DNA from: an uncultured Actinomycetes bacterium | GTDB taxonomy: Bacteria > Actinomycetota > Acidimicrobiia > Acidimicrobiales > RAAP-2 | DNA: 64,000 nucleotides | Direction: 5' to 3' | Assembly (NCBI GenBank): GCA_903825765.1 | Contig: CAIKBU010000081.1 | Coordinates: 32,301 to 96,300, forward strand | Shown: positions 2,480-48,199 of the stretch, in pieces | How the letters are laid out: the number at the start of each line of letters is the position of its first letter | Numbering within the stretch: the stretch's first letter is position 1 | Made by a program: the position numbers and the translations under genes | The notes under the pieces: model-generated | The model's database searches: none | Told to the model about the DNA's origin: nothing | Seen by the model: only the letters and a program-made list of their open reading frames with translations

Positions 2480-3528
2480 CGAACCTCCTCTTCATACCTA
2501 CGGTACGCCGCTCGAACATCATCGGCGTCGACGGTGACGGAGCCAAATCCGTCGGGACCGGGCAACACGAATACCAGATTGTGGTGGGCTTTCTTGTCGC
2601 GCGCCATGACCTCGAGCACTTCCTCAACGTCGAAAGCCACGGGCGGGCGGATGGCGAGACCGAAGTGGGCCACGACAGCGTCACTGTAGCGAACATACGA
2701 TTCGTCCACGCGACCCAAGTCACGAGCGAGGCGTGCGGCAAACGCCAGGCCACAGGCCACCGCCTCACCATGGCGAAGCAAGTCGTCATCGTGCGCCAAG
2801 GCCAATCGTTCAATGGCGTGTCCCAATGTGTGCCCGTAGTTCAAGAGAGCGCGTTCACCGGTGCGTTCAAACTCGTCTCGCGCGACAATGGTGGCCTTTA
2901 GCGCCACCGCCATAGCAACGAAGTCTTCGACGGACGCAGTGTCGAGTTCCTCGAGTGGTCGTTGCTCGAGTAACCAGCATTTCGCGACCTCACCGAAGCC
3001 CCCGCGACGTTCCCGTTCGGAGAGCGTGGTGAGCATTTCGAGGTCGCAGATCACCGCTCGGGGTTGATGAAATGCACCGACGAGGTTCTTCCCCGCCGGG
3101 ACGTTCACCGCTGTCTTGCCCCCAATGGCGGCGTCAACCTGGCCAGCTACCGTTGTTGAAACGTGCACCACCGCCACCCCACGAAGGTAGACCGCGGCGA
3201 TAAAACCGGCCACGTCAGTCGTGGCTCCGCCACCGACTGCCACAATGACGTCGTGGCGCGACACCGTCGCTCTGGCGAGGTCATCGCAGACCCGAGCCAC
3301 GACCGCCATGTCCTTCGCAGCCTCGCCTTCGGGCACCTCGATCACCAGTGACGCCAGCGGCACCGTGAGATCCCACCAGGGCTGCTTTCGTAGTGAGGGT
3401 GTCGTGATGAACACCGCCACTTTGGCGCGCGGCGCGGCGGCGGCGACAACCGTGGCCAGCTCTCGACGGGCACCGGCGCCGATGTGGACGTTGTAGGGCG
3501 CATCGCTGAGGGCAACGGTAATGATCAT
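2476..3528 (-). CDS. aroB: 3-dehydroquinate synthase
   Basis: 350 aa; VAVGGGATTDVAGFIAAVYLRG, GGKTAVN, GHTLGHAIE. Confidence 0.96.
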   Translation of the reverse strand: MIITVALSDAPYNVHIGAGARRELATVVAAAAPRAKVAVFITTPSLRKQPWWDLTVPLASLVIEVPEGEAAKDMAVVARVCDDLARATVSRHDVIVAVGGGATTDVAGFIAAVYLRGVAVVHVSTTVAGQVDAAIGGKTAVNVPAGKNLVGAFHQPRAVICDLEMLTTLSERERRGGFGEVAKCWLLEQRPLEELDTASVEDFVAMAVALKATIVARDEFERTGERALLNYGHTLGHAIERLALAHDDDLLRHGEAVACGLAFAARLARDLGRVDESYVRYSDAVVAHFGLAIRPPVAFDVEEVLEVMARDKKAHHNLVFVLPGPDGFGSVTVDADDVRAAYRRYEEEVR

Positions 3529-35251: not shown

Positions 35252-36355
35252 CTACGGGCGCAGGAAGTCTGGCAGGTCGTCGTCGCCACCGAGTCCCAAG
35301 AAGTCGTCATCGTTTGAAGTACTGAACGCCTCAGAACGAGGGCCTTCGATGAGGCTGGCCACGGGTGGGGCGACGGGAGCCTGCGCCACCGGAGCCTTTT
35401 GCGTGGTCGGGTGGTCAAAACCGGCCGCAATGACAGTCACGCGAACCGCTTCGCCAATCGACTCATCGATAACGGAGCCGAAGATGATGTTCGCGTCAGG
35501 GTGGGCAACCTCGTGGATGATGCTGGCAGCGTCGGTGACTTCGCTCAAGGTCACGCCGGGTCCACCAACAATGTTCATCAAGATGCCTCGTGCACCCTCG
35601 ATGGACGCCTCGAGCAGTGGCGAGGTAATTGCGGCGCGGGCGGCGTTGATCGCGCGTCCCTCGCCCGTCGACATACCAACACCCATGATCGCCGTGCCGG
35701 CATTACGCATAATGGCGTTCACGTCCGCGAAGTCCGTATTGATGAGGCCAGGTACGGTGATCAGGTCCGTTACGCCACGGACGGCCGAAAGCAGCACGTC
35801 GTCGGCAATCTTGAAGGCGTCCATGATCGTCGTTTCGGTGGTCGTCACGTTGCGCAGACGGTCGTTGGGGATGACAATAAGGGTGTCGACTTTTTCGCGC
35901 AGTTGCTGGATGCCCTTTTCCGCCTGCGTCGCGCGACGCTTTCCTTCAAAAGTGAACGGGCGAGTGACCACACCGATGGTCAAAATGCCCATGGCCCGGG
36001 CAATGTCAGCAACGACGGGGGCTGCACCAGTACCGGTACCACCACCCTCACCAGCAGTAATGAACACCATGTCGGTGTCACGCAGTGCCTCTTCGATTTC
36101 GGCGCGGTGGTCTTCGGCGGCCTGACGTCCCACTTCGGGGTCCGAACCGGCACCGAGGCCACGGGTAATGGTGCGACCAATGTCAATCTTGAGGTCGGCC
36201 TCGGAGAGGAGCAACGCCTGAGCGTCGGTGTTCGCGGCGATGAATTCAATGTTTCGCAAGCCGGCACTAATCATGCGGTTTACGGCGTTCACGCCACCGC
36301 CACCGACACCGATGACCTTAATAACTGCGTGATAGTTGCCTTGACTCAGACTCAT
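35252..36355 (-). CDS. ftsZ: Cell division protein FtsZ
   Basis: [35 protein letters not shown]-terminal [12 protein letters not shown] opens at 36394; ATG 36355 preferred. Confidence 0.98.
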
Positions 36356-36470
36356 CAAACTCCCCTTTGGGTTTAGTACTGCTACGTCGACCATACGATG
36401 AGGCGCTCATTCTCCAGCGCCACAAGTAAGTACAGGCTAGTTAGCCTTTTAGTTTAGGAGCAAATGGTGC

Positions 36471-37322
36471 TCAACCTGATGATGGACTCGTCACGGTCAA
36501 TTCATCGGGCACGGTGACGTTGACCACGTCACCTGGCGTCAACGTGGAGGACTTGAGCACCGAGGCAATTGCGGTGAATTTTGCGTGGAGATTGGTGGCG
36601 TCTCCGACCACGAAGAGCACGGGCGTCGTCATGCCCAGTGACACCGCGCCGCTGGGGTCAATATTTATCGTTCGTACCTGATCGGCGAAGGCCGGCGGCA
36701 GTGCTGCGGCGATTGCGACCCCGGCAGCACCTTGTCGCGAGTAGGGCCAGGCGGCGCCGGCGGCGGGATCAACCAGCGTCGGCAGGTTGGCGTTGGCGGG
36801 AGCAGCGCCCAGGTCGGCCCCGTTCGCCCCCACGTAGGCCCACGTGGCCTTCTTCGCCGCCACGGCAACGACCCGCGTTTCATGGACCGTGATGGTTACC
36901 GTATGGGGCCACGACACGGTAACCCGCGCGTCGCTCACCCACGGCAAGGCGCGCAGACTCCGTTCGAGGGCAGTCGTCGAAAGACCATAGAGCTCCGGGT
37001 GGCGGCCGAGGCCAGTGAGTCGAAGGACCGCAGGCATTGTTTCGTGCGTCGCACCAACGAGGTGCACTGACTGAACGCGAAAATAGGACTGCCGGAGTAC
37101 CCAGCGCCCACCGAGGACGACGGACGTGCCAATCACCAGCAGGGTGAGGACAACGAGAAAACGCTTACTGGGACGGCGACGCTTCGGCGTCGCCGACGAG
37201 TCATCACGTCGGGCTCGTCGACCCTCGGACGCTTCGCGACGACCACGAGTCTGTGGCGTTTCGCGTCGGCCACGGGTGGCTCCGCGAGACGATGGTCGGC
37301 CTGCCTCGCCACGACGGCTCAT
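36471..37322 (-). CDS. ftsQ: Cell division protein FtsQ (POTRA domain)
   Basis: 283 aa; basic N-terminus, one TM, FRVQSVHLVGATHE, LRALPWVSDARVTVSWPHTVTITVHE. Confidence 0.9.
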   Translation of the reverse strand: MSRRGEAGRPSSRGATRGRRETPQTRGRREASEGRRARRDDSSATPKRRRPSKRFLVVLTLLVIGTSVVLGGRWVLRQSYFRVQSVHLVGATHETMPAVLRLTGLGRHPELYGLSTTALERSLRALPWVSDARVTVSWPHTVTITVHETRVVAVAAKKATWAYVGANGADLGAAPANANLPTLVDPAAGAAWPYSRQGAAGVAIAAALPPAFADQVRTINIDPSGAVSLGMTTPVLFVVGDATNLHAKFTAIASVLKSSTLTPGDVVNVTVPDELTVTSPSSG

Positions 37323-38191
37323 AACGCCTCCTCGAATCCCCAGAATTTAGTTTCTGGCTCCAACGTGATACCGAATTCGTCACGTACCCTGCGGCGGACC
37401 TCTCGCATGAGCGCAAAGACATCGTGGGCCACGCCATCGCTCTCGGCGATGATGAAGTTGGCGTGCTTGGTCGACACCGACGCCGACCCGACCCGCAACC
37501 CGCGCCCCCCCACGGCTTCGATCAGTCGACCGGCTGCGTCACCCGGTGGATTACGAAACACGCTGCCCGCATTCGCTCCGCCCGGTTGGTGCTCGCGACG
37601 CCATCGCACGATCTCTCGCAACCGTTCCGACTCCGCGGCCGCGTCACCCCGTTCGAGTCGAAGCGTGACCTCAATGACGACGTCACGAGGGGCGAGCGCG
37701 GAGGTTCGATACCCAAAACCAAGTTCAGGTGCCGTCAGCGTCACCAGTGATCCCTCGCGCCAGACCACGACCGACGACACCGAGGCCGCCATATCCGAAC
37801 CATGCCCGCCGGCATTCATGGCGACGCCGCCGCCAAAGGTGCCGGGCACACCAACGGCCCAGGCGAACCCGACGACGCCGTCGGTCGCCAGACGTCGCGC
37901 GGCCCGCGGCAGGTCCATTCCCGCACCGGCAACCACCGTGACCCCCTCGGGCGAGTCGGACCAGCGAATGTCAGCGAGTGCGCCAACGCACTGCACGGCC
38001 ACAATGTCGTGTCGACCGTCGGCAACGAGGAGATTCGATCCATTCCCCACCGCGCGGACATCGCCCGTGAGGTTGCTGGTCGCCGCGAGGTCCTCGACCT
38101 CCTCGACGGTGACAAAACTGGCCACCGACCCACCGATTCGGTAGGTCGTGTGCGGGCCCATGGCCTCATCGTGGCGCACCTGGGAAGTCAT
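37319..38191 (-). CDS. murB: UDP-N-acetylenolpyruvoylglucosamine reductase
   Basis: TTYRIGGSVASFVTV, VGNGSNLLVADG, GVVGFAWAVGVPGTFGGGVAMNAGGHGSDMA, NAGSVFRNPPG. ORF opens at 38215. Confidence 0.95.
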   Translation of the reverse strand: MTSQVRHDEAMGPHTTYRIGGSVASFVTVEEVEDLAATSNLTGDVRAVGNGSNLLVADGRHDIVAVQCVGALADIRWSDSPEGVTVVAGAGMDLPRAARRLATDGVVGFAWAVGVPGTFGGGVAMNAGGHGSDMAASVSSVVVWREGSLVTLTAPELGFGYRTSALAPRDVVIEVTLRLERGDAAAESERLREIVRWRREHQPGGANAGSVFRNPPGDAAGRLIEAVGGRGLRVGSASVSTKHANFIIAESDGVAHDVFALMREVRRRVRDEFGITLEPETKFWGFEEAL

Positions 38192-39531
38192 TGACCGACG
38201 ACCTCCGCTGCCCACTCCCCCACGTCGCCCGCCCCGAGGAAGAAGAGGGCGTCACCCGATCGGGTGGCCAGTGCCGTGAGCACCTCAGCCTTGGTCGCGA
38301 GATACGGCACCTCTTGCTGGCGGCGGTGGTGAAGCGATTCCGCCACGCTCTCGCCCCGCACGCCCGCGGTATTTTCCTCACCGGCGGTGTAGATCGCCGT
38401 GACGATCACCTCGTCGGCGTCATCGAACGCTGGCGCGAAACCCTCGCCAACCGCGGCCGTTCGGGTATAGCGGTGGGGTTGAAAGACGGCGATGATGCGC
38501 TGATATCCCGCGTCTTTGGCGGCCTTAAGCGTGGCCGCAATCTCGCCCGGCAGGTGGGCGTAGTCCTCGAAGACGTCGAAGTTCCCGTAGCGACCTCGGA
38601 ACTCGAACCGCCGAGGAGCACCACGAAACGCCGCGAGACCCGCGGTGACCGCTTCGGGTTCAATGCCCAGCGAGAGGGCGAGCACCGCAGTGGTAGCCGC
38701 ATTCGCAACGTTATGAATGCCCGTGACCGCGAGTGAGAGAGCGAGCGCCACCGGCCCCGTTACCGAGAAGGTCGCGCCGTGGCGAGCCAGTTGCACGTCG
38801 CTCACCCGCCACTGAGCCGTCGACGACGTTCCGACGGTGACGACTGAGCGCTCGACCTGGGCAATCACCCGTTGGACGCCCGCGTCGTCACTCCAGACCA
38901 CCACCGGACCGCGCGTACGTGACACCAGAGCGGCGAAGGCGGACTCGAGTGTCGCCAGGTCGCCGTAGTGATCGAGGTGGTCGGCCTCGACGTTGAGGAC
39001 GGCCAGTGCGTAGGGCGACAGGCGGTCGAAGGTGCCGTAGCTCTCGTCAGTTTCGAGCACCAGCGTCGACGATGACCCCGCGTGGCCATTCGCACCGATG
39101 CCGAGGACCTCGGCACCGAGCAGCCAACTGTCGTCTCGCTGGGCACCGACCATGATGTGCACCATCATCGAGGTGGCCGTCGTTTTGCCATGGGTGCCGG
39201 TGAGACCGACCACGTCGTAGAGGTCGCCCAGGGTTTCGAGCATCTGCGCTCGCGTTAGGAGCGTCGCTCCACGTTCGCGAGCCGCCGTGAGAGTTGGATG
39301 AGTGAGGGATACCGCCGGCGACCACAGCACCACGTCGGCGTCACTGCCCTGGAGGGGATCGGTGTCGCTTCCCATTGCAATGCCCTCGGTAGCCAGTGCC
39401 GAGGCGACACCACTCATGTCCGCGTCACTACCCGAAACAACACAGCCACGCTCGTGCAACAGACGGGCCACACCACTCATGCCGGCGCCCGCCGCGCCGA
39501 CAATATGAATGCGAGTGCCCGGCGCAGTCAT
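38188..39531 (-). CDS. murC: UDP-N-acetylmuramate-L-alanine ligase
   Basis: 447 aa; IHIVGAAGAGMSGVARLL, GLTGTHGKTTATSM, EDYAHLPGEI, FQPHRYTRT. Confidence 0.95.
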   Translation of the reverse strand: MTAPGTRIHIVGAAGAGMSGVARLLHERGCVVSGSDADMSGVASALATEGIAMGSDTDPLQGSDADVVLWSPAVSLTHPTLTAARERGATLLTRAQMLETLGDLYDVVGLTGTHGKTTATSMMVHIMVGAQRDDSWLLGAEVLGIGANGHAGSSSTLVLETDESYGTFDRLSPYALAVLNVEADHLDHYGDLATLESAFAALVSRTRGPVVVWSDDAGVQRVIAQVERSVVTVGTSSTAQWRVSDVQLARHGATFSVTGPVALALSLAVTGIHNVANAATTAVLALSLGIEPEAVTAGLAAFRGAPRRFEFRGRYGNFDVFEDYAHLPGEIAATLKAAKDAGYQRIIAVFQPHRYTRTAAVGEGFAPAFDDADEVIVTAIYTAGEENTAGVRGESVAESLHHRRQQEVPYLATKAEVLTALATRSGDALFFLGAGDVGEWAAEVVGQ

Positions 39532-40640
39532 CGCGACACCGCCACGACCGTCTCGGCAATCGCGGCCGCCGCATCACGGCGGGAGAGCGTCAACGCGGCC
39601 AGCTCCATGCGCTTTTGTTGGTCTGGACCAAGTATCAGGGTGAGGGCCGCGGCCAATTTCGCGGGGGTCAGTGACGCCTCATCAAATACCATCGCGCCAC
39701 CCGCCGAGCTGAGTACCCGAGCATTCGCACTCTGGTGATCACCGGGCGCACCCGGCAGCGGCACCAGCACTGACGCAATACCCAACGTGCACAGTTCGGC
39801 CACAGTGGTCGCCCCGGCTCGACAGACGGCCACGTCGGCGACCGCCCACCACGTCGTCATGTCGGCAAAATCAAGTATGCGATAGTCGAGACCCTCGAGC
39901 GTCGGCACCTGCTCGCGTACCCAGGCCTCATCACGTCGTCCGGTGACGTGGATCAAGGTGACGTCTGAGCGAGTGGACCATAGACCCGCGAGCGCCAGGG
40001 TCATTTCATTGACTTTTCGCGAACCCAAGGAACCAGTCATGACGACGATGACGTGACGTCCCTGTTCGATGGGGGGCACGACGGATGCCCTCGCCCGGTC
40101 GCGAGCCAATGGTGCACGGTCAATGCTCGCAATATCGTGGCGAACCGGAGCACCCGTGACTACCGTCCGCTCATCAGCGACGCCGAAGGCCACACAGCGG
40201 CGCGTCGCCCATCGACGCAGGAGTCGGTGCGTGAGCGGAGCGTGAGCGTCCAGATCAATCAACACCAGGGGGCGGCGGCACAGTACGGCACCGAGTGATA
40301 CCGCGAAGGACGCGTAGCCACCGACACTGACCACGGCCCGAGGTCGCCAACGGGCAACGAGGGAAATGCCCATCACACTGGCTCGCACCAGTCCCACGAG
40401 GGCGCCAGCATTTTGCCAGCAAGCTTGAAGTGAAAGGGAGCGGCGAATACCGCGGCCGGGCAGCAGGGTGAGCGCTATCGGACCGTGACCGAGGAGTCGC
40501 CCCTCTTGACCACGAGTTGATCCCACGTAGCGGATGTCGTGCGTCGAGAGACCCACGCCGCACAGCGCTTCCGCCACTGCTTGCATCGGGAAGATGTGAC
40601 CACCCGTGCCCCCGCCGGTGATGACAACGGGGCCCGTCAT
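39528..40640 (-). CDS. murG: UDP-N-acetylglucosamine transferase MurG
   Basis: 370 aa; ITGGGTGGHIFPMQAVAEAL, VSVGGYASFAVSLGA, CRAGATTVAELCTLGIASVLVPLP. Confidence 0.96.
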   Translation of the reverse strand: MTGPVVITGGGTGGHIFPMQAVAEALCGVGLSTHDIRYVGSTRGQEGRLLGHGPIALTLLPGRGIRRSLSLQACWQNAGALVGLVRASVMGISLVARWRPRAVVSVGGYASFAVSLGAVLCRRPLVLIDLDAHAPLTHRLLRRWATRRCVAFGVADERTVVTGAPVRHDIASIDRAPLARDRARASVVPPIEQGRHVIVVMTGSLGSRKVNEMTLALAGLWSTRSDVTLIHVTGRRDEAWVREQVPTLEGLDYRILDFADMTTWWAVADVAVCRAGATTVAELCTLGIASVLVPLPGAPGDHQSANARVLSSAGGAMVFDEASLTPAKLAAALTLILGPDQQKRMELAALTLSRRDAAAAIAETVVAVSR

Positions 40641-41878
40641 GGACGTTGTGGTCGCAGCGGTGGTCGACCAGGTGAGGACAACCCACTCCGGCGCGACGAC
40701 CCGACGGGAGAGGGCAGCTTCACGTCCTTACGGGAGCGCGAGGTGTGACTGGACGACGTGTCATGGGCGATGTTGTAGAGAAGCCCCACGGCAGCCATCT
40801 GCATGATCAACGCCGTACCGCCGTAACTAAAGAAGGGAAGCGGCACGCCCGTCACTGGCCAAGAACCAATCACCGACGCAATGTTAATCAGTGCCTCCAA
40901 GGCAATCCACGTCGTAAGACCGACCGCAATAAGCCGCAATACATCGTTCCGACATCCTTTGATAATGCGCGTCGCGAAAATGAGGAAGGCCATAAAGAGA
41001 CCGATGACCGCCAAGGTTCCGATGAAGCCCAGTTCTTCGCCAATGATGGAAAAAATAAAGTCCGTGTGGGGGTTTGGCAGCATCCCCCACTTCATGCGAC
41101 TATTCCCGTACCCGAGCCCCCGCCATCCACCCGACCCGAGGGCAATTTGCGACTGGAAGAGTTGGTAATTGCTCCCGCCATGTTGGGTGCTCAAGTGAAG
41201 AAACGAGAAGCGAGCTCTGGCGTATTTATTTGCGCTGGCGTAGATAGCAATCGCCGTCACGGCGAATCCGGAAGCAACCGCCATTTGCAGCGCCGAAGCA
41301 CCGCCAATAATGAGCATGCTGAACGCCATGACCCCAACAATCGTCGCGGTGCCAATGTCACGCTCGAGAAGGATAAGAAGCACCCCGAGCCCCACGGGCA
41401 CCATCCGTAGGGCCAGCTGTCGCCACTCGCCCAACTCTTTGTGAAACTTCGATATGACCCAGGCCACGTAAAAAACTACGGCCATCTTGAAAACTTCGGA
41501 CGGCTGAATCTGCTGTCCGAACAAACTAATCCACCGACGCCCACCGTTCGAGGTCGAGCCGGCCACCATAACGTACGCGAGACCGACGATGCCGATGCCG
41601 ATGATCCAGAGCCCCCATCGCACGAAGAACGTAATCGGCATTCGCGCCATGATCACGAGCACGACTACTGACAGTCCAACAAACAGTAAGTCATGAGACA
41701 TGAAGCCAAAGTTCGAACCGCTCGCTACCGCGAGCCCTTCGGACGCTGACGCCACCATGAACGTGCCGTAGGTCACCATCAGCAACGTGGTGACCACGAG
41801 GGCGGTGCCCATCTTGTTGCCCTTCGGAAACGACTGGACAAATCGGGCGAGTGGATTGGTCCACTTCAGCGTCGCCAC
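40637..41878 (-). CDS. ftsW: Septal peptidoglycan polymerase FtsW (SEDS)
   Basis: 413 aa; multi-TM; GGRRWISLFGQQIQPSEVFKMAVV, HTDFIFSIIGEELGFIG, TGVPLPFFSYGGTALI. Confidence 0.96.
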   Translation of the reverse strand: MATLKWTNPLARFVQSFPKGNKMGTALVVTTLLMVTYGTFMVASASEGLAVASGSNFGFMSHDLLFVGLSVVVLVIMARMPITFFVRWGLWIIGIGIVGLAYVMVAGSTSNGGRRWISLFGQQIQPSEVFKMAVVFYVAWVISKFHKELGEWRQLALRMVPVGLGVLLILLERDIGTATIVGVMAFSMLIIGGASALQMAVASGFAVTAIAIYASANKYARARFSFLHLSTQHGGSNYQLFQSQIALGSGGWRGLGYGNSRMKWGMLPNPHTDFIFSIIGEELGFIGTLAVIGLFMAFLIFATRIIKGCRNDVLRLIAVGLTTWIALEALINIASVIGSWPVTGVPLPFFSYGGTALIMQMAAVGLLYNIAHDTSSSHTSRSRKDVKLPSPVGSSRRSGLSSPGRPPLRPQRP

Positions 41879-42912
41879 TACAGCACCTTCGCGATCTTGA
41901 CAAAGTCACCGTAGAAGATGCCCAGACCGAGTGAGGCGAGGAGTCCGGCCAGAATCCAGAATCGGATGATGACCGTTATTTCGGGCCATCCCTGGAGTTC
42001 AAAGTGGTGATGAAACGGCGCCATCTTAAAGATACGGCGCCCAAACACGCGGAAGCTAAAGACCTGCAAGATCACCGACAACGTTTCGGCTACGAACAGA
42101 CCGCCAATGATTGGCAAGAGTAAGTCCAGATTCATGAGCAGACACAGTGCCCCGAGACCCGTGCCGATGGCCAGCGATCCGGTGTCGCCCATATAGATAC
42201 GAGCCGGCGCCGCGTTCCACCACAAAAATCCCAGTAGAGCGCCGACGAGGGCAACGGCAACGAGGCCTAGGTCAAGCGAAGCGTGCAGGTGATAAATGTG
42301 GAAATGGCGGTACTGCCAGTACCCGATGATGGCCAGCACCCCGAAGCAGAACGAACCCGATCCGGCGGCGAGGCCATCAAGACCGTCAGTCAAATTAACG
42401 GCGTTCGACGTCGCGATAATGACGAAGACCGCCATAGCGAACCACCCACCGGCCATGAGTTGCCACCCCGGAAATGACACTCGGGTGAATGACAGGTGGG
42501 TCGAGGTGTGGACCCAGTAGAGGGCAGCGAGGGCGAAGCCAATCGCAATCAAAAACTGCCCAGCAATCTTGCCGCGCTTGTTCAGTCCTAAATTCCGAGC
42601 ATTGCGAATACCAATCAGGTCGTCGGCGAACCCCAACAGTCCTGACGCCACAATCGCGGCAATCACCAAGAGACCAGAACGAGTGAAGGTCAGCGCAGAA
42701 CCGAGATGCCCGCAGCCATACCCGACCACAGTGGCGACCACAATGACCACACCGCCCATCGTGGGGGTGCCCGCTTTTACCTGGTGCGAAGCGGGACCAT
42801 CCTCACGAATTCGCTGACCCATTGAGCGTTCGCGAACGTACCGGATCCACATCGGCGTCACGAGCAGGGCAATCAAGAAGGCGACGCCGCCCGACTTCAT
42901 CAAACTCAACAT
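41878..42912 (-). CDS. mraY: Phospho-N-acetylmuramoyl-pentapeptide transferase
   Basis: 344 aa; GTPTMGGVVIV, FADDLIGIRN, NAVNLTDGLDGLAAG, FLWWNAAPARIYMGDTGSLAIG, HHHFELQGWPE. Confidence 0.97.
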   Translation of the reverse strand: MLSLMKSGGVAFLIALLVTPMWIRYVRERSMGQRIREDGPASHQVKAGTPTMGGVVIVVATVVGYGCGHLGSALTFTRSGLLVIAAIVASGLLGFADDLIGIRNARNLGLNKRGKIAGQFLIAIGFALAALYWVHTSTHLSFTRVSFPGWQLMAGGWFAMAVFVIIATSNAVNLTDGLDGLAAGSGSFCFGVLAIIGYWQYRHFHIYHLHASLDLGLVAVALVGALLGFLWWNAAPARIYMGDTGSLAIGTGLGALCLLMNLDLLLPIIGGLFVAETLSVILQVFSFRVFGRRIFKMAPFHHHFELQGWPEITVIIRFWILAGLLASLGLGIFYGDFVKIAKVL

Positions 42913-42919
42913 GGGCAGC

Positions 42920-44308
42920 TCACTTCAGTATCTCCCGTACGTGGAGGCGGTCATCAAAGGCTAGAACCTGATCACCGATAGATTGGGTCGTTTCGTGACC
43001 CTTTCCGGCAATCAGCACCACGTCAGCATCTCGCGCCATCGAAAGCGCCGAGGCAATGGCCTCGGCGCGGTCCACGATGCGCTGCGCGGCGCCGGCGGGC
43101 ACTGTGGAAAGCACCTCGTCAATAATCTGTTCCGGATCCTCACTACGAGGATTATCCGACGTCACAATCACGTAGTCCGACAGACTGGTCGCCACCTCGC
43201 CCATGCGAGGGCGCTTGGCGCGGTCACGGTCGCCACCACAGCCAAAGACCGTAATGACGCGACCTGACGACAAGGCTCGAACGGCGTGCAGCACTCGTTC
43301 GAGGCCATCGGGGCTGTGTGCGTAGTCAACAATCACGGTTGGTGAATCGTCGTGCACCACCTCGAATCGTCCCGGTACGGCGGCAACGGAGCGCAGTGCG
43401 TTGGCCACCGATTCCTCGCTGGCCCCCAAGGCAACCACGATGGCCATCGCGAGAAGCGCATTGTCGACGTTGTAGTCACCGATCAAGGGTGAGCTAACCG
43501 CCCATCCACGCCACAGAAATGAGGTCCCCGATAAGGTGCTCGCAACTTGCGAGGCATCGCTGCGACGAACCTCCACTGTGGGCAGAGTGCACGCGTCGGC
43601 CAAACGGCGACCGTACGGGTCGTCGACCCAGATCACCGCACGACTGGCGTATTCAGAAGTGAAGAGACGGGCCTTCGCCGCGAAGTACTGTGCCATCGTT
43701 TCGTGATAATCCAGATGGTCGTGGGTGAGGTTGGTGAAGGCGGCCACTGCGAAATGCGCACCGAGGACGCGGTCCTGGTCGAGGGCGTGACTGGACACCT
43801 CGAGTGCGACCACGTGCTTCGCCGAATCCTCGATTGGCGTTCTCAGTGCGCGAAGTGTCCGCCACAGCTCTGGGGCGGCGGGGGTCGTGCGCTCTTGCGT
43901 CAGCGTGCCAATGCTGTCACCGTGCCAACCAAGAGCGGTGCAGAGACTGGCGACCAACGTGGCCACGCTCGTCTTGCCATTTGTTCCCGTGATACCGACC
44001 AGTTGTACCTCGCGGTCAGGGCGCCCCGTCACCGCAGCACAGGCGTGCGCCAATGCGGCGCGGAGTCGCGATGGGGGGATGACAATAACGGGGACAGAGC
44101 ACGACACCATTGCGGGAACCACCACGGCGCTGGCCCCATTGGCCACGGCGTCAGCAACGTAGTCAATGCCTTTCGCCACCTGTCCATCGAGCGCGAAAAA
44201 CAGTACCCCCGGCGCACACCGACGACTGTCGATTTCCACCGCCGTAATTTCGATACCGGCGGTGGCCATCGTGAAGTCGAGATCGTCAAAAATGTCGCCG
44301 AGGTGCAT
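42920..44308 (-). CDS. murE: UDP-MurNAc-L-Ala-D-Glu:meso-diaminopimelate ligase
   Basis: 462 aa; GITGTNGKTSVATLVAS, HLDYHETMAQYFAAKARLF, SDNPRSEDPEQII (DNPR, mDAP type), GKGHETTQ. Confidence 0.95.
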   Translation of the reverse strand: MHLGDIFDDLDFTMATAGIEITAVEIDSRRCAPGVLFFALDGQVAKGIDYVADAVANGASAVVVPAMVSCSVPVIVIPPSRLRAALAHACAAVTGRPDREVQLVGITGTNGKTSVATLVASLCTALGWHGDSIGTLTQERTTPAAPELWRTLRALRTPIEDSAKHVVALEVSSHALDQDRVLGAHFAVAAFTNLTHDHLDYHETMAQYFAAKARLFTSEYASRAVIWVDDPYGRRLADACTLPTVEVRRSDASQVASTLSGTSFLWRGWAVSSPLIGDYNVDNALLAMAIVVALGASEESVANALRSVAAVPGRFEVVHDDSPTVIVDYAHSPDGLERVLHAVRALSSGRVITVFGCGGDRDRAKRPRMGEVATSLSDYVIVTSDNPRSEDPEQIIDEVLSTVPAGAAQRIVDRAEAIASALSMARDADVVLIAGKGHETTQSIGDQVLAFDDRLHVREILK

Positions 44309-46140
44309 CAGGTCACGTCCGATCGCAGAGCACCTGGTCCAGACAGTGGCTTGATGATGGCGCCCGTCGAGGCGATGTTGTAGTGGTGAAGGGCGTAACT
44401 CATCACCTGTTGAAAGACGGGGGCGGCGACGGCGCCGCCAAAGATGGTGGTCGTGGGTCGCTCCACCACCACAATCATGGAAAAGGTGGGATTGTTCGCC
44501 GGTGCGAAGCCGACGAAGCTCGCGTTGTACGCGCCCGTAATGAGGCGAGCGGCGCCGGGCTGAGGGATTGATGCAGTACCGGTTTTGCCAGCGACCACGT
44601 ACCCAGGAATGATCGCGTTCGTCCCGGTCCCCGCGAGCACTACCTGCTGCAGCATCTGATTCATGGTGCGAGCAACACGGGTCGAAAGGGCCTGTCGCTG
44701 CACACTTGGCGCCGTGGCAGTGGCGTGTCCGTCTGCCCCAATTGTTGCGCGGACTAATTTGGGCTCAACAAACACGCCGCCATTGGCAATGGCGTTGTAC
44801 GCATCGAGCACCTGAATCGCCGGGACTGCGTCGACTTGACCAATGGGCAGCGAGACTTCATCAGAGGCGTACCAATTCGCGGCATTGATCAGCAGACCAG
44901 CGGTTTCGCCGGGGTAGTTCACCGAAGTGAGCTGACCAAAACCCAGTCGTTCAACTTGCGCCAAAATACGGTTCTCACCGATAGTTTTACCAATTTCGTA
45001 AGTGCCAATATTGGACGACTGAGCCAGAATCTGCGTCGTCGTCAGGTGCTCAACACCGTGTACTTCAGCATCGTGGAATGGTCGGCCGCCAACTCGAATG
45101 TTGTAGGGAACGGTGAATACCTTTCCCGGGGTGACCGTACCTGCCTCGAGCGCCGCCGAGAACGTCACCGCCTTGAACACTGATCCTGGTTCGTAGGCCT
45201 GCGTAAAGGGAAGATTGTTTATGGTCTGTTCGATACCGGGCACACCCACCGACTGCCCCCACGCCGGCACGGGACCAAGAATGCCGGGGTTGCTCTTGGT
45301 GTTCACCAGCGAAGCGTCGGCCAATATTTCACCGGTCTTGACGTCCATGAGTACGGCCTGTCCCGTGATGCCGTGGACCGCCGCGAGTTGCGTTGCCAGT
45401 GCCCGCTCGGTAACAAATTGTAGATTGTTATCAATAGTGAGTTCGAGGCCAGTGCCTGGCTGGGCCTTCTTCAGTACCTGCCGTTGGTTATTCGGCAGCG
45501 GCACTTTGGTGAGTGACGTCCACTCCCGATCAAGGCCATTGTGGCCGGCCAATGACGATTGATACTGGTACTCCAGACCGGTCGTCCCCTGTCCTGAAAT
45601 ATTGGTTCGACCAAGAAGTGACTGCAACAGCGTGCCGTTGGGGTACGAACGACTGGACGAAGGGACGATGGTGATGCCGAAGTTGGCAAATTGCGCACCG
45701 ATTTGTTTGCCAGCGGCGACGCCGACATGGTTCGACAAAATAACGCCACCGTTGTGAATCGACAGCAGTTTGGTCAAGGCCGGCACCGGAATATTGATCA
45801 GCCCCGACATCGCCCTTGCTTCGCCCGCGGGATCTTTCACAAAGTAGTTGTCCGACTGCACTAAATACGCCGGCTCCGACAGCGCAATCAGACGGCCGTA
45901 GCGGTCCCATATATTGCCGCGAACGGCAGTCGTCGGAATCTGGTGTCTCGACTCGCTTGCCGCCCGGGTGCTCTGCACAGCGTGATCGTGAATTTGAAGA
46001 AAGAACAGTCGACCCGCCAAGAGAAGGAAGGCCATGAAGTAGCTACCGTGCAGCAAGGCGAAACGCATGTTCGGGCGAGCACGGTTCGCGGAGTGCTTCG
46101 ACCCCGGACGAGCGTGGGTCGACGTTGCGTGCCGACTCAC
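44308..46140 (-). CDS. ftsI: Class B penicillin-binding protein (FtsI)
   Basis: EPGSVFKAVTF (SxxK), QSSN, GKTGTASIPQPG. ORF opens at 46233; GTG 46140 overlaps the upstream stop in GTGA, so preferred. Confidence 0.94.
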   Translation of the reverse strand: MSRHATSTHARPGSKHSANRARPNMRFALLHGSYFMAFLLLAGRLFFLQIHDHAVQSTRAASESRHQIPTTAVRGNIWDRYGRLIALSEPAYLVQSDNYFVKDPAGEARAMSGLINIPVPALTKLLSIHNGGVILSNHVGVAAGKQIGAQFANFGITIVPSSSRSYPNGTLLQSLLGRTNISGQGTTGLEYQYQSSLAGHNGLDREWTSLTKVPLPNNQRQVLKKAQPGTGLELTIDNNLQFVTERALATQLAAVHGITGQAVLMDVKTGEILADASLVNTKSNPGILGPVPAWGQSVGVPGIEQTINNLPFTQAYEPGSVFKAVTFSAALEAGTVTPGKVFTVPYNIRVGGRPFHDAEVHGVEHLTTTQILAQSSNIGTYEIGKTIGENRILAQVERLGFGQLTSVNYPGETAGLLINAANWYASDEVSLPIGQVDAVPAIQVLDAYNAIANGGVFVEPKLVRATIGADGHATATAPSVQRQALSTRVARTMNQMLQQVVLAGTGTNAIIPGYVVAGKTGTASIPQPGAARLITGAYNASFVGFAPANNPTFSMIVVVERPTTTIFGGAVAAPVFQQVMSYALHHYNIASTGAIIKPLSGPGALRSDVT

Positions 46141-46592
46141 CTCGACGTCCTTGGCCTCACGGTCACACCGATGGTGAACGTCGGCAGTGGCAGCGGTGTC
46201 GCCAGCGACGCAGCGGGAACCTGACGCACCCACCTTGGTTGTACGAGGTGCAGTTGCTGTGCTTTCTGCGCCACAATGCCCGGCGTCGACTCTCCGGCCA
46301 GTGAGTTGACGAGCGCCCCGTAGTTCGACAGGTCGGTTTGGTACTGGGCTTGATTCGCCTGAATCTGCATTTGACGCTGGCCGCTCACCATCGAGCAGTA
46401 CGCCATCACCAGAGCGGGAATCAACACGATGACAATGCTGGCCACGATGGTCCGACGACGGCGCTTGGCGAGCGAACGCTCCGTAACTTCGGAGCGAACC
46501 GGAGTGAGGTGACGTGGCGACGAAGGGGCAGTCGTGGTGCGACGAGGGTCAGCGGCGCCCTGCCAGCGTCGTGGCGATGAAATAACGCTCAT
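46137..46592 (-). CDS. FtsL-like septum protein
   Basis: 151 aa; basic N-terminus, one TM (TIVASIVIVLIPALVMAYCSMVSG), coiled-coil; position between rsmH and ftsI. Confidence 0.75.
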   Translation of the reverse strand: MSVISSPRRWQGAADPRRTTTAPSSPRHLTPVRSEVTERSLAKRRRRTIVASIVIVLIPALVMAYCSMVSGQRQMQIQANQAQYQTDLSNYGALVNSLAGESTPGIVAQKAQQLHLVQPRWVRQVPAASLATPLPLPTFTIGVTVRPRTSR

Positions 46593-47647
46593 GATGTGAC
46601 CTTTCGAGCAATTCGCAGGCGTGCGGAACGCGCACGGGGGTTGTGAGAAATTTCGTCAGTGGTTGCTAACTGCGAACTCGCGCGGTCCACCGTGGCGACG
46701 GCGACGGCACCGCACACGCAACCGAGCGCCTGGGGGCACTGGCAACCACCCGTGGCCCAGCGATGGAACGTGGTCTTGACCGTCCGGTCTTCGCCCGAGT
46801 GGTAGGAGATCACGGTCAAGATTCCTCTGGTGTCGAGGACTTCGAGAGCTCCGTTAAGTCCCGCTTCCAGTTGGCCCATTTCGTCGTTGACAGCAATACG
46901 AAGTGCTTGAAAGACGCGCGTGGCCACGTGCCCCTTTCGCCGCACCGCCATTGGCACAACGCGCTCGACCGCCGCACTGAGTTCAGAGGTCGTCTGGGGC
47001 AAGCTTTTTAGTACGGAGCGTGCAATGGCCCCCGCGAAACGGTCTTCGCCGTTCTCGCGCAGCAGACGGGTGAAGTCGTGGACATCGGCGGTCGCCAGGT
47101 ACTGCGCTGCGGTGAGTCCCGACGTTGGATCCATTCGCATGTCGAGCGGCGCTTCGGCGCGAAATGAAAATCCCCGCTCCCCCTCGTCGAGTTGGTGCGA
47201 GGAAACACCGAGATCCATTAGGACCCCGACGACTTCGTCTTCACCCATCCACACACGCGACGTGGCGACGACCTCCACGATGTCGCCGAACGTGGCCGCC
47301 ACAATGCGCACGCGATCGCCAAATGGCGCCAGCACCTTCCCCGCTTGAGCACGGGCGGCGGGGTCACGGTCAATACCAATGATGCGCAGGGTGGGATAGG
47401 CCGCGAGCAAACGTGCGCTGTGCCCTCCCCCACCCAAAGTGGCGTCAATAAAGACACCCGTGGGGTGGTCGGCGTAGAGGGAGACGATCTCGTCAACCAA
47501 GACCGGCTCGTGGTACTCGGTGCGCTCAACCTGCAGCCTTTCAATCCCTGCGGAGTCGGCGCAGGCGGAGAATGAAGCGCTTCCTCCCTCAGAGATTGCC
47601 AGGCTGCGCGTGGAGCGCGGACGGTAGGCCACGGTGGCGCGAATCAT
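46589..47647 (-). CDS. rsmH: 16S rRNA (cytosine1402-N4)-methyltransferase RsmH (MraW)
   Basis: 352 aa; YHEPVLVDEIV, FIDATLGGGGHSARLL, GVLMDLGVSSHQLDEGERGFSFR; ATGA overlap with mraZ. Confidence 0.96.
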   Translation of the reverse strand: MIRATVAYRPRSTRSLAISEGGSASFSACADSAGIERLQVERTEYHEPVLVDEIVSLYADHPTGVFIDATLGGGGHSARLLAAYPTLRIIGIDRDPAARAQAGKVLAPFGDRVRIVAATFGDIVEVVATSRVWMGEDEVVGVLMDLGVSSHQLDEGERGFSFRAEAPLDMRMDPTSGLTAAQYLATADVHDFTRLLRENGEDRFAGAIARSVLKSLPQTTSELSAAVERVVPMAVRRKGHVATRVFQALRIAVNDEMGQLEAGLNGALEVLDTRGILTVISYHSGEDRTVKTTFHRWATGGCQCPQALGCVCGAVAVATVDRASSQLATTDEISHNPRARSARLRIARKVTS

Positions 47648-48066
47648 TGTGGGGCGACCTGAGTGAAGTACTCCCCGCCGCTACTCGCGTACGCGGCGAA
47701 GAGTTCGGGGTTCCAGATTTCGATGTGGTCAAGGTGGCCAATGAAGAGCACCTCGCCATCGAGTTGGGCAATGTCGCGAATTGACGCTGGGAGAGCAAAG
47801 CGGCCCTGGCGATCAACCTCAACCTCACAGGAGTTTGAGGACCAGAACAGCGATCGACGCCGGTCAAATTCATTTTCTGAGTGGCTGAGGATTCGATATT
47901 CGTCAGCGCGACGAGTGAATTCGCCCACCGTGAACATCGCCAGGCTTCGCCCTTTTTCGGGCGCCACCCAACCACCACTTTGGAATTCCGCGCGAAATTT
48001 CGCGGGCAAGACGAGTCGACCCTTACCGTCCAGCGTGTGCTGATGGCGACCGGTCAGGTAGTGCAT
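47644..48066 (-). CDS. mraZ: Transcriptional regulator MraZ
   Basis: MHYLTGRHQHTLDGKGRLVLPAKFRAEF and second half VDRQGRFALPASIRDIAQL. ORF opens at GTG 48099; ATG 48066 has an upstream GGGAG. Confidence 0.95.
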   Translation of the reverse strand: MHYLTGRHQHTLDGKGRLVLPAKFRAEFQSGGWVAPEKGRSLAMFTVGEFTRRADEYRILSHSENEFDRRRSLFWSSNSCEVEVDRQGRFALPASIRDIAQLDGEVLFIGHLDHIEIWNPELFAAYASSGGEYFTQVAPQ

Positions 48067-48085
48067 CGACTCTCCCTCGGGAGAA

Positions 48086-48150
48086 CCACTTTCCCCCACC
48101 TCGCTACAGTATCACGCCACTTTGTGCCACTTAAAACCACATATCACCAA
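48086..48150 (-). promoter_or_regulatory. Candidate MraZ box array: GTGG boxes at 10-nt phase
   Basis: Plus-strand CCAC at 48086, 48096, 48117, 48127, 48137 and CCAA at 48147; minus reads GTGGttttaaGTGGcacaaaGTGGcgtgat. Confidence 0.75.
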
Positions 48151-48169: not shown

Positions 48170-48199
48170 AAAAAAACGACGTGGGCGAACCCACGTCGT
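48170..48199 (-). terminator. Rho-independent terminator between the lipoate-ligase-like gene and mraZ
   Basis: 10-bp perfect stem ACGACGTGGG-CGAA-CCCACGTCGT (48176-48199); minus strand continues with a T7 run. Confidence 0.88.

Follow-up and report, generated by a model that had tools for sequence, protein, structure and literature searches.

The mraZ gene and the boxes upstream of it

The 64,000-nt stretch of DNA analyzed here, which we call the window, carries a dcw cluster at positions 35252-48066 with mraZ as its first gene. The mraZ product matches Pfam PF02381 in two stretches at 67.5 bits (cut-off 23), finds its best partner among the PDB MraZ chains at E 7.6e-15, the others being weaker, and holds two DXXXR motifs, LDGKGR and VDRQGR. 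Its best NCBIfam match is the equivalog TIGR00242, where it scores 80.3 bits, below the cut-off of 98.35, so this is a divergent MraZ. By its sequence matches the ORF is a genuine mraZ heading the dcw cluster. Downstream, Pfam recognizes rsmH (MraW methylase, PF01795), the transpeptidase gene ftsI, a murE-type Mur ligase gene and mraY. A small ORF after rsmH, in the ftsL position, has no Pfam match, and from their translations further ORFs read as ftsW, murG, murC, murB, ftsQ and ftsZ. Outside the cluster, on other contigs (G000:C88 and G000:C13), lie murD and a murF-like gene, the match of the latter scoring 203.5, below the family cut-off of 288.6. On the other side of mraZ, the upstream gene ends with an intrinsic terminator (48199-48170), and the operon must therefore start from a promoter of its own in the region described here. 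No RNA family was found in an Rfam search of this region. Its minus strand reads ...CCAAAA TTGGTGATAT GTGGTTTTAA GTGGCACAAA GTGGCGTGAT ACTGTAGCGA G GTGGGGGAAA GTGGTTCTCC CGAGGGAGAGTCG ATG, and its features are collected in Table 1.

Table 1. Features of the mraZ upstream region, in window coordinates; registers are counted from the first base of the candidate -10.
Feature	Position	Strand	Remarks
mraZ, 140 aa, first dcw gene	47644..48066 (ATG 48066-48064)	-	PF02381 and PDB matches
Candidate Shine-Dalgarno GAGGGAG	48072..48078	-	5 nt before ATG; likely, from sequence
MraZ box GTGG	48086..48089	-	register +24, from relatives and genus alignment
MraZ box GTGG	48096..48099	-	register +14, from relatives and genus alignment
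Missing +4 box, here CTGT	48106..48109	-	GTGG in 48/50 relatives with 17-nt spacer
Candidate -10 GATACT	48108..48113	-	4/6 to TATAAT; best plausible register with relatives, genus alignment
MraZ box GTGG	48117..48120	-	register -7
MraZ box GTGG	48127..48130	-	register -17
Candidate -35 TTTTAA	48131..48136	-	weak, 3/6; fills spacer between boxes -27 and -17 exactly; 17 nt from GATACT
MraZ box GTGG	48137..48140	-	register -27
Degenerate MraZ box TTGG	48147..48150	-	register -37 from GATACT
Intrinsic terminator	48170..48199	-	10-bp stem and T tract; ends upstream gene, isolates mraZ promoter

Three GTGG boxes start at 48140, 48130 and 48120, in exact 10-nt steps, preceded 10 nt earlier by the degenerate TTGG at 48150. 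A second pair, again 10 nt apart, starts at 48099 and 48089. The boxes at 48120 and 48089 read AAAGTGG. From the third perfect box to the fourth (48120 to 48099) the step is 21 nt (10+11), not 20, which puts the two clusters out of exact 10-nt phase. A sequence-only reading of the region had listed these boxes with their 10-nt phase, the degenerate fourth box and a GATACT at 48113-48108, and all of them are in place on the minus strand. It had also called the boxes MraZ-type; the Pfam and PDB matches of the gene and the phasing in relatives, described below, bear this out. There are, then, at least three direct repeats of a GTG(G) core with a 10-nt period upstream of mraZ, the pattern by which we recognize an operator. 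The spacers vary from box to box, the GTGG and the phase are constant, and this favors protein binding over a drifting tandem repeat. From its sequence, the array is almost certainly a row of docking sites for MraZ, the operon's own first protein.

How often would such a pattern arise by chance? When the 156-nt sequence between the genes was randomized 20,000 times with its dinucleotides preserved, the perfect triple GTGGN6GTGGN6GTGG never appeared, nor did three GTGG pairs 10 nt apart. The whole 1.75-Mb genome holds two perfect triples, the one at mraZ and another between two minus-strand genes, and none of the reversed-pattern control; by our estimate, about one chance triple is expected in a genome of this size. 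Simple pairs, GTGGN6GTGG, are over-represented in the window (15 observed, 3.75 expected) and so are weak evidence by themselves. In a search for an MraZ regulon, family-wide array counts were not clearly above the reversed-pattern control. With these counts, and one other triple in the genome, we make no claim of a regulon.

A separate observation concerns GTGGNNGTCGGTGG, which occurs at window positions 3230, 21692, 31211 and 41531 (minus), four times in 64 kb where 0.05 is expected; genome-wide there are eight, against one for the reversed pattern. The window copies look coding, in reading frames of the VGVGG or VAVGG type.

Register with the promoter in relatives and with a candidate promoter in the window

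We found mraZ in 114 of the 118 genomes of the order. GTGGN6GTGG lies upstream of it in 75 of 92 regions, compared with 18 of 1,099 control windows of equal length taken from the same loci, and in a wider sample of the phylum the figures are 38 of 44 and 4 of 553. The 10-nt spacing is thus strongly conserved across order and phylum. The sequence-only reading had named unconserved spacing as a result that would refute it, and on this test it is upheld. Boxes of the same type also precede mraZ in one Nitriliruptoraceae-labeled and four Gemmatimonadota-labeled loci; in the latter (L066-L069) most of them follow the predicted -10, which is the arrangement in Escherichia coli but not in the window's order. 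Three of 120 phylum genomes gave no mraZ match (G197, G274 and G268), and two of the three are large (9.2 and 7.9 Mb) and belong to the same genus.

In 97 related upstream regions, GTGG pairs at a distance of 10 number 108, where 3.8 are expected. Other peaks stand at 11, 20, 21, 30, 31, 40 and 41, with smaller ones at 13, 23 and 43; most other distances have no comparable peak. Among 54 relatives from outside the genus, chosen for a perfect TTGAC, a spacer of 16-18 nt and TANNNT, GTGG starts cluster at -37, -27, -16, +4 and +14 relative to the first nucleotide of the -10. Where TTGAC-N17-TANNNT is clear, the full register runs -37, -27, -16, -6, +4, +14, +24, the boxes at -6 and +24 being mostly GGGG or AGGG. 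GTGG stands at +4 in 48 and at +14 in 46 of the 50 relatives with a 17-nt spacer; at -37 the count is GTGG in 11, GGGG in 8 and ATGG in 3. The -35 TTGAC occupies a box spacer, the 11-nt step between -27 and -16, and it is this step that produces the distance peaks at 11, 31 and 41. The -10 is typically TAAAGT and shares two bases with the +4 box, the best conserved of all the boxes.

The overlap of operator and promoter is clear in the relatives; the promoter of the window itself is a weak and ambiguous candidate. A strict sigma-70 scan of the region returned no consensus promoter. Taking GATACT as the -10 places the window boxes at -37 (TTGG), -27, -17, -7, +14 and +24, with only +4 missing, and scores 12.9 against the relatives' register. 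The alternative TACTGT, which is preceded by TGA, scores -1.8 and sets every box 2-3 nt off that register; we keep it as an alternative. GATACT, already picked out as a possible -10 in the sequence-only reading, is the best fit among the plausible candidates and may serve as the -10 of the window promoter. Two other placements were rejected. Treating the box at 48099 as +4 gives the top geometric score (17.6), but demands the implausible -10 CGAGGT, and a promoter further upstream, around TGATAT/TATGTG (48146-48138), has no matching -35. An alignment of six genomes of the genus puts the window boxes in the same register, with single-base placements uncertain because MraZ identity to the window is 32-48% across the alignment. 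Another member of the genus (L042, from G109) has ten consecutive NKGG-type boxes upstream of mraZ in exact 10-nt steps, the longest run among genus members.

Probable autorepression and its rivals

On this sequence evidence the array is very probably an autoregulatory MraZ operator of the dcw operon, through which MraZ would repress its own synthesis by occluding RNA polymerase. MraZ forms a ring-shaped oligomer, and each subunit reads a GTG(G) core through an AbrB-like DXXXR motif. With boxes spaced by one helical turn, the cores lie on one face of the DNA, and several boxes can then be occupied together by one or more rings. In published work, the form that binds the repeated GTG cores is an octamer or a similar ring (PMC5282649, PMC7761207). 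The window boxes cover the candidate -35 and -10 and the expected start site, and bound MraZ should therefore block RNA polymerase. When MraZ is plentiful, transcription of mraZ-rsmH-ftsI-mur would fall, a negative feedback. That the window's MraZ binds here, and that the effect is repressive, we infer; in some lineages MraZ could act as an activator rather than a repressor.

Why are there two clusters in the window? The sequence-only reading saw them as flanking the -10 and repressing from both sides. The 21-nt gap is real and has the GATACT inside it; in most relatives, however, the boxes continue across the promoter without a break, the +4 box being overlapped by the -10. Because most relatives are unbroken through this region and the window clusters keep the register, the layout is best read as one array that has probably lost its -10-overlapping +4 box and taken a 1-nt shift. 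The clusters might instead be functionally separate operators, as repression from both sides implies, the upstream boxes blocking the -35 and -10 and the downstream ones forming a 5'UTR roadblock or allowing a DNA loop. The gap with its -10 candidate speaks for this. So does the genus alignment: of the five further members examined, two (G170 and G073) show no GTGG opposite the gap and have kept the downstream boxes. A single lost box is the simpler account of an otherwise unbroken, in-register array, and we consider separate operators unlikely.

Activation is less probable still. Upstream-bound MraZ might recruit polymerase or aid transcription, given the poor -35 in the genus: TTTTAA agrees with the consensus at only three of six positions, and two genus members (G162 and G109) likewise have no TTGAC at the corresponding place. 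But the boxes also extend over the candidate -10 and the expected start of transcription, an arrangement that favors a block, and in work cited in PMC8475190 the E. coli protein represses the operon that encodes it. The G-rich repeats might also fold into a G-quadruplex, within the promoter or the 5'UTR, as proposed for Staphylococcus aureus mraZ; such a motif is reported in the promoter of that gene (PMC11796246), and the window array does have several GG tracts. Most tracts are just GG, with 8-nt loops, which makes a poor quadruplex; strict 10-nt phasing across a phylum is not something a quadruplex needs; and the G-rich mraZ region of other species is the MraZ box array itself. We give the idea very little credence. 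Even less can be said for chance or a functionless 10-nt repeat driven by mutation: GTGG is fairly common in the genome and its 10-nt pairs are in excess in the window, but the box spacers are divergent, and the idea is contradicted by the position upstream of mraZ, kept throughout the order and the phylum while the control windows almost never have the pattern.

MraZ is among the most widespread bacterial regulators, but studies of its sites cover only a few species. The boxes, their period and their target gene are already known. The mildly new part is the register embedded in the promoter. We suggest, tentatively, that boxes and promoter are interleaved in fixed register across the order, and that the lineage of the window dropped the +4 box and so split its array; the loss could alter the strength of repression or permit polymerase and MraZ to bind together. 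In the accessible literature, with the key MraZ papers outside it, we found no description of this order-wide interleaving or of a lineage loss of +4, and we claim no priority. An operator that passes through the promoter in register predicts, for the whole order, a direct competition between MraZ and RNA polymerase. The 10/11-nt rule, the well-kept +4 box and its natural losses are ready variants with which to test how MraZ rings engage several boxes.

Known MraZ sites

Our positive control was the region upstream of E. coli mraZ, which we take to be a known MraZ-box site. It reads GTGGgaaattGTGGggcaaaGTGGgaataaGGGG, with the GTGG core and 10-nt phase of the window. Its boxes, counted by hand from the TTGACA-N18-TAAACT promoter, start at about +13, +23, +33 and +43, all downstream of the -10, unlike those of the window and its relatives, which span -37 to +24. 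The other mraZ upstream regions of the order share the gene, the boxes and the promoter register; what sets the window apart is the absence of the +4 box and of a TTGAC -35, and upstream boxes in strict 10-nt phase where the relatives have an 11-nt step at the -35.

The Mollicutes site, (AAAGTGKN3)3 in Fisunov et al. 2016 as quoted in PMC5282649, resembles the window in its GTG core, its 10-nt unit and its three perfect copies, and two window boxes read AAAGTGG. The window differs in having as many as six boxes, a 21-nt gap and other flanking bases. MraZ tolerates a spacer altered by 1 nt (PMC5282649). In Burkholderia cenocepacia the site bound in EMSA consists of four 7-nt repeats with 3-nt spacers (PMC7761207), which is the same 10-nt period. 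That site overlaps the start site and lies downstream of the -10, whereas the window array covers the candidate -35 and the -10 spacer too.
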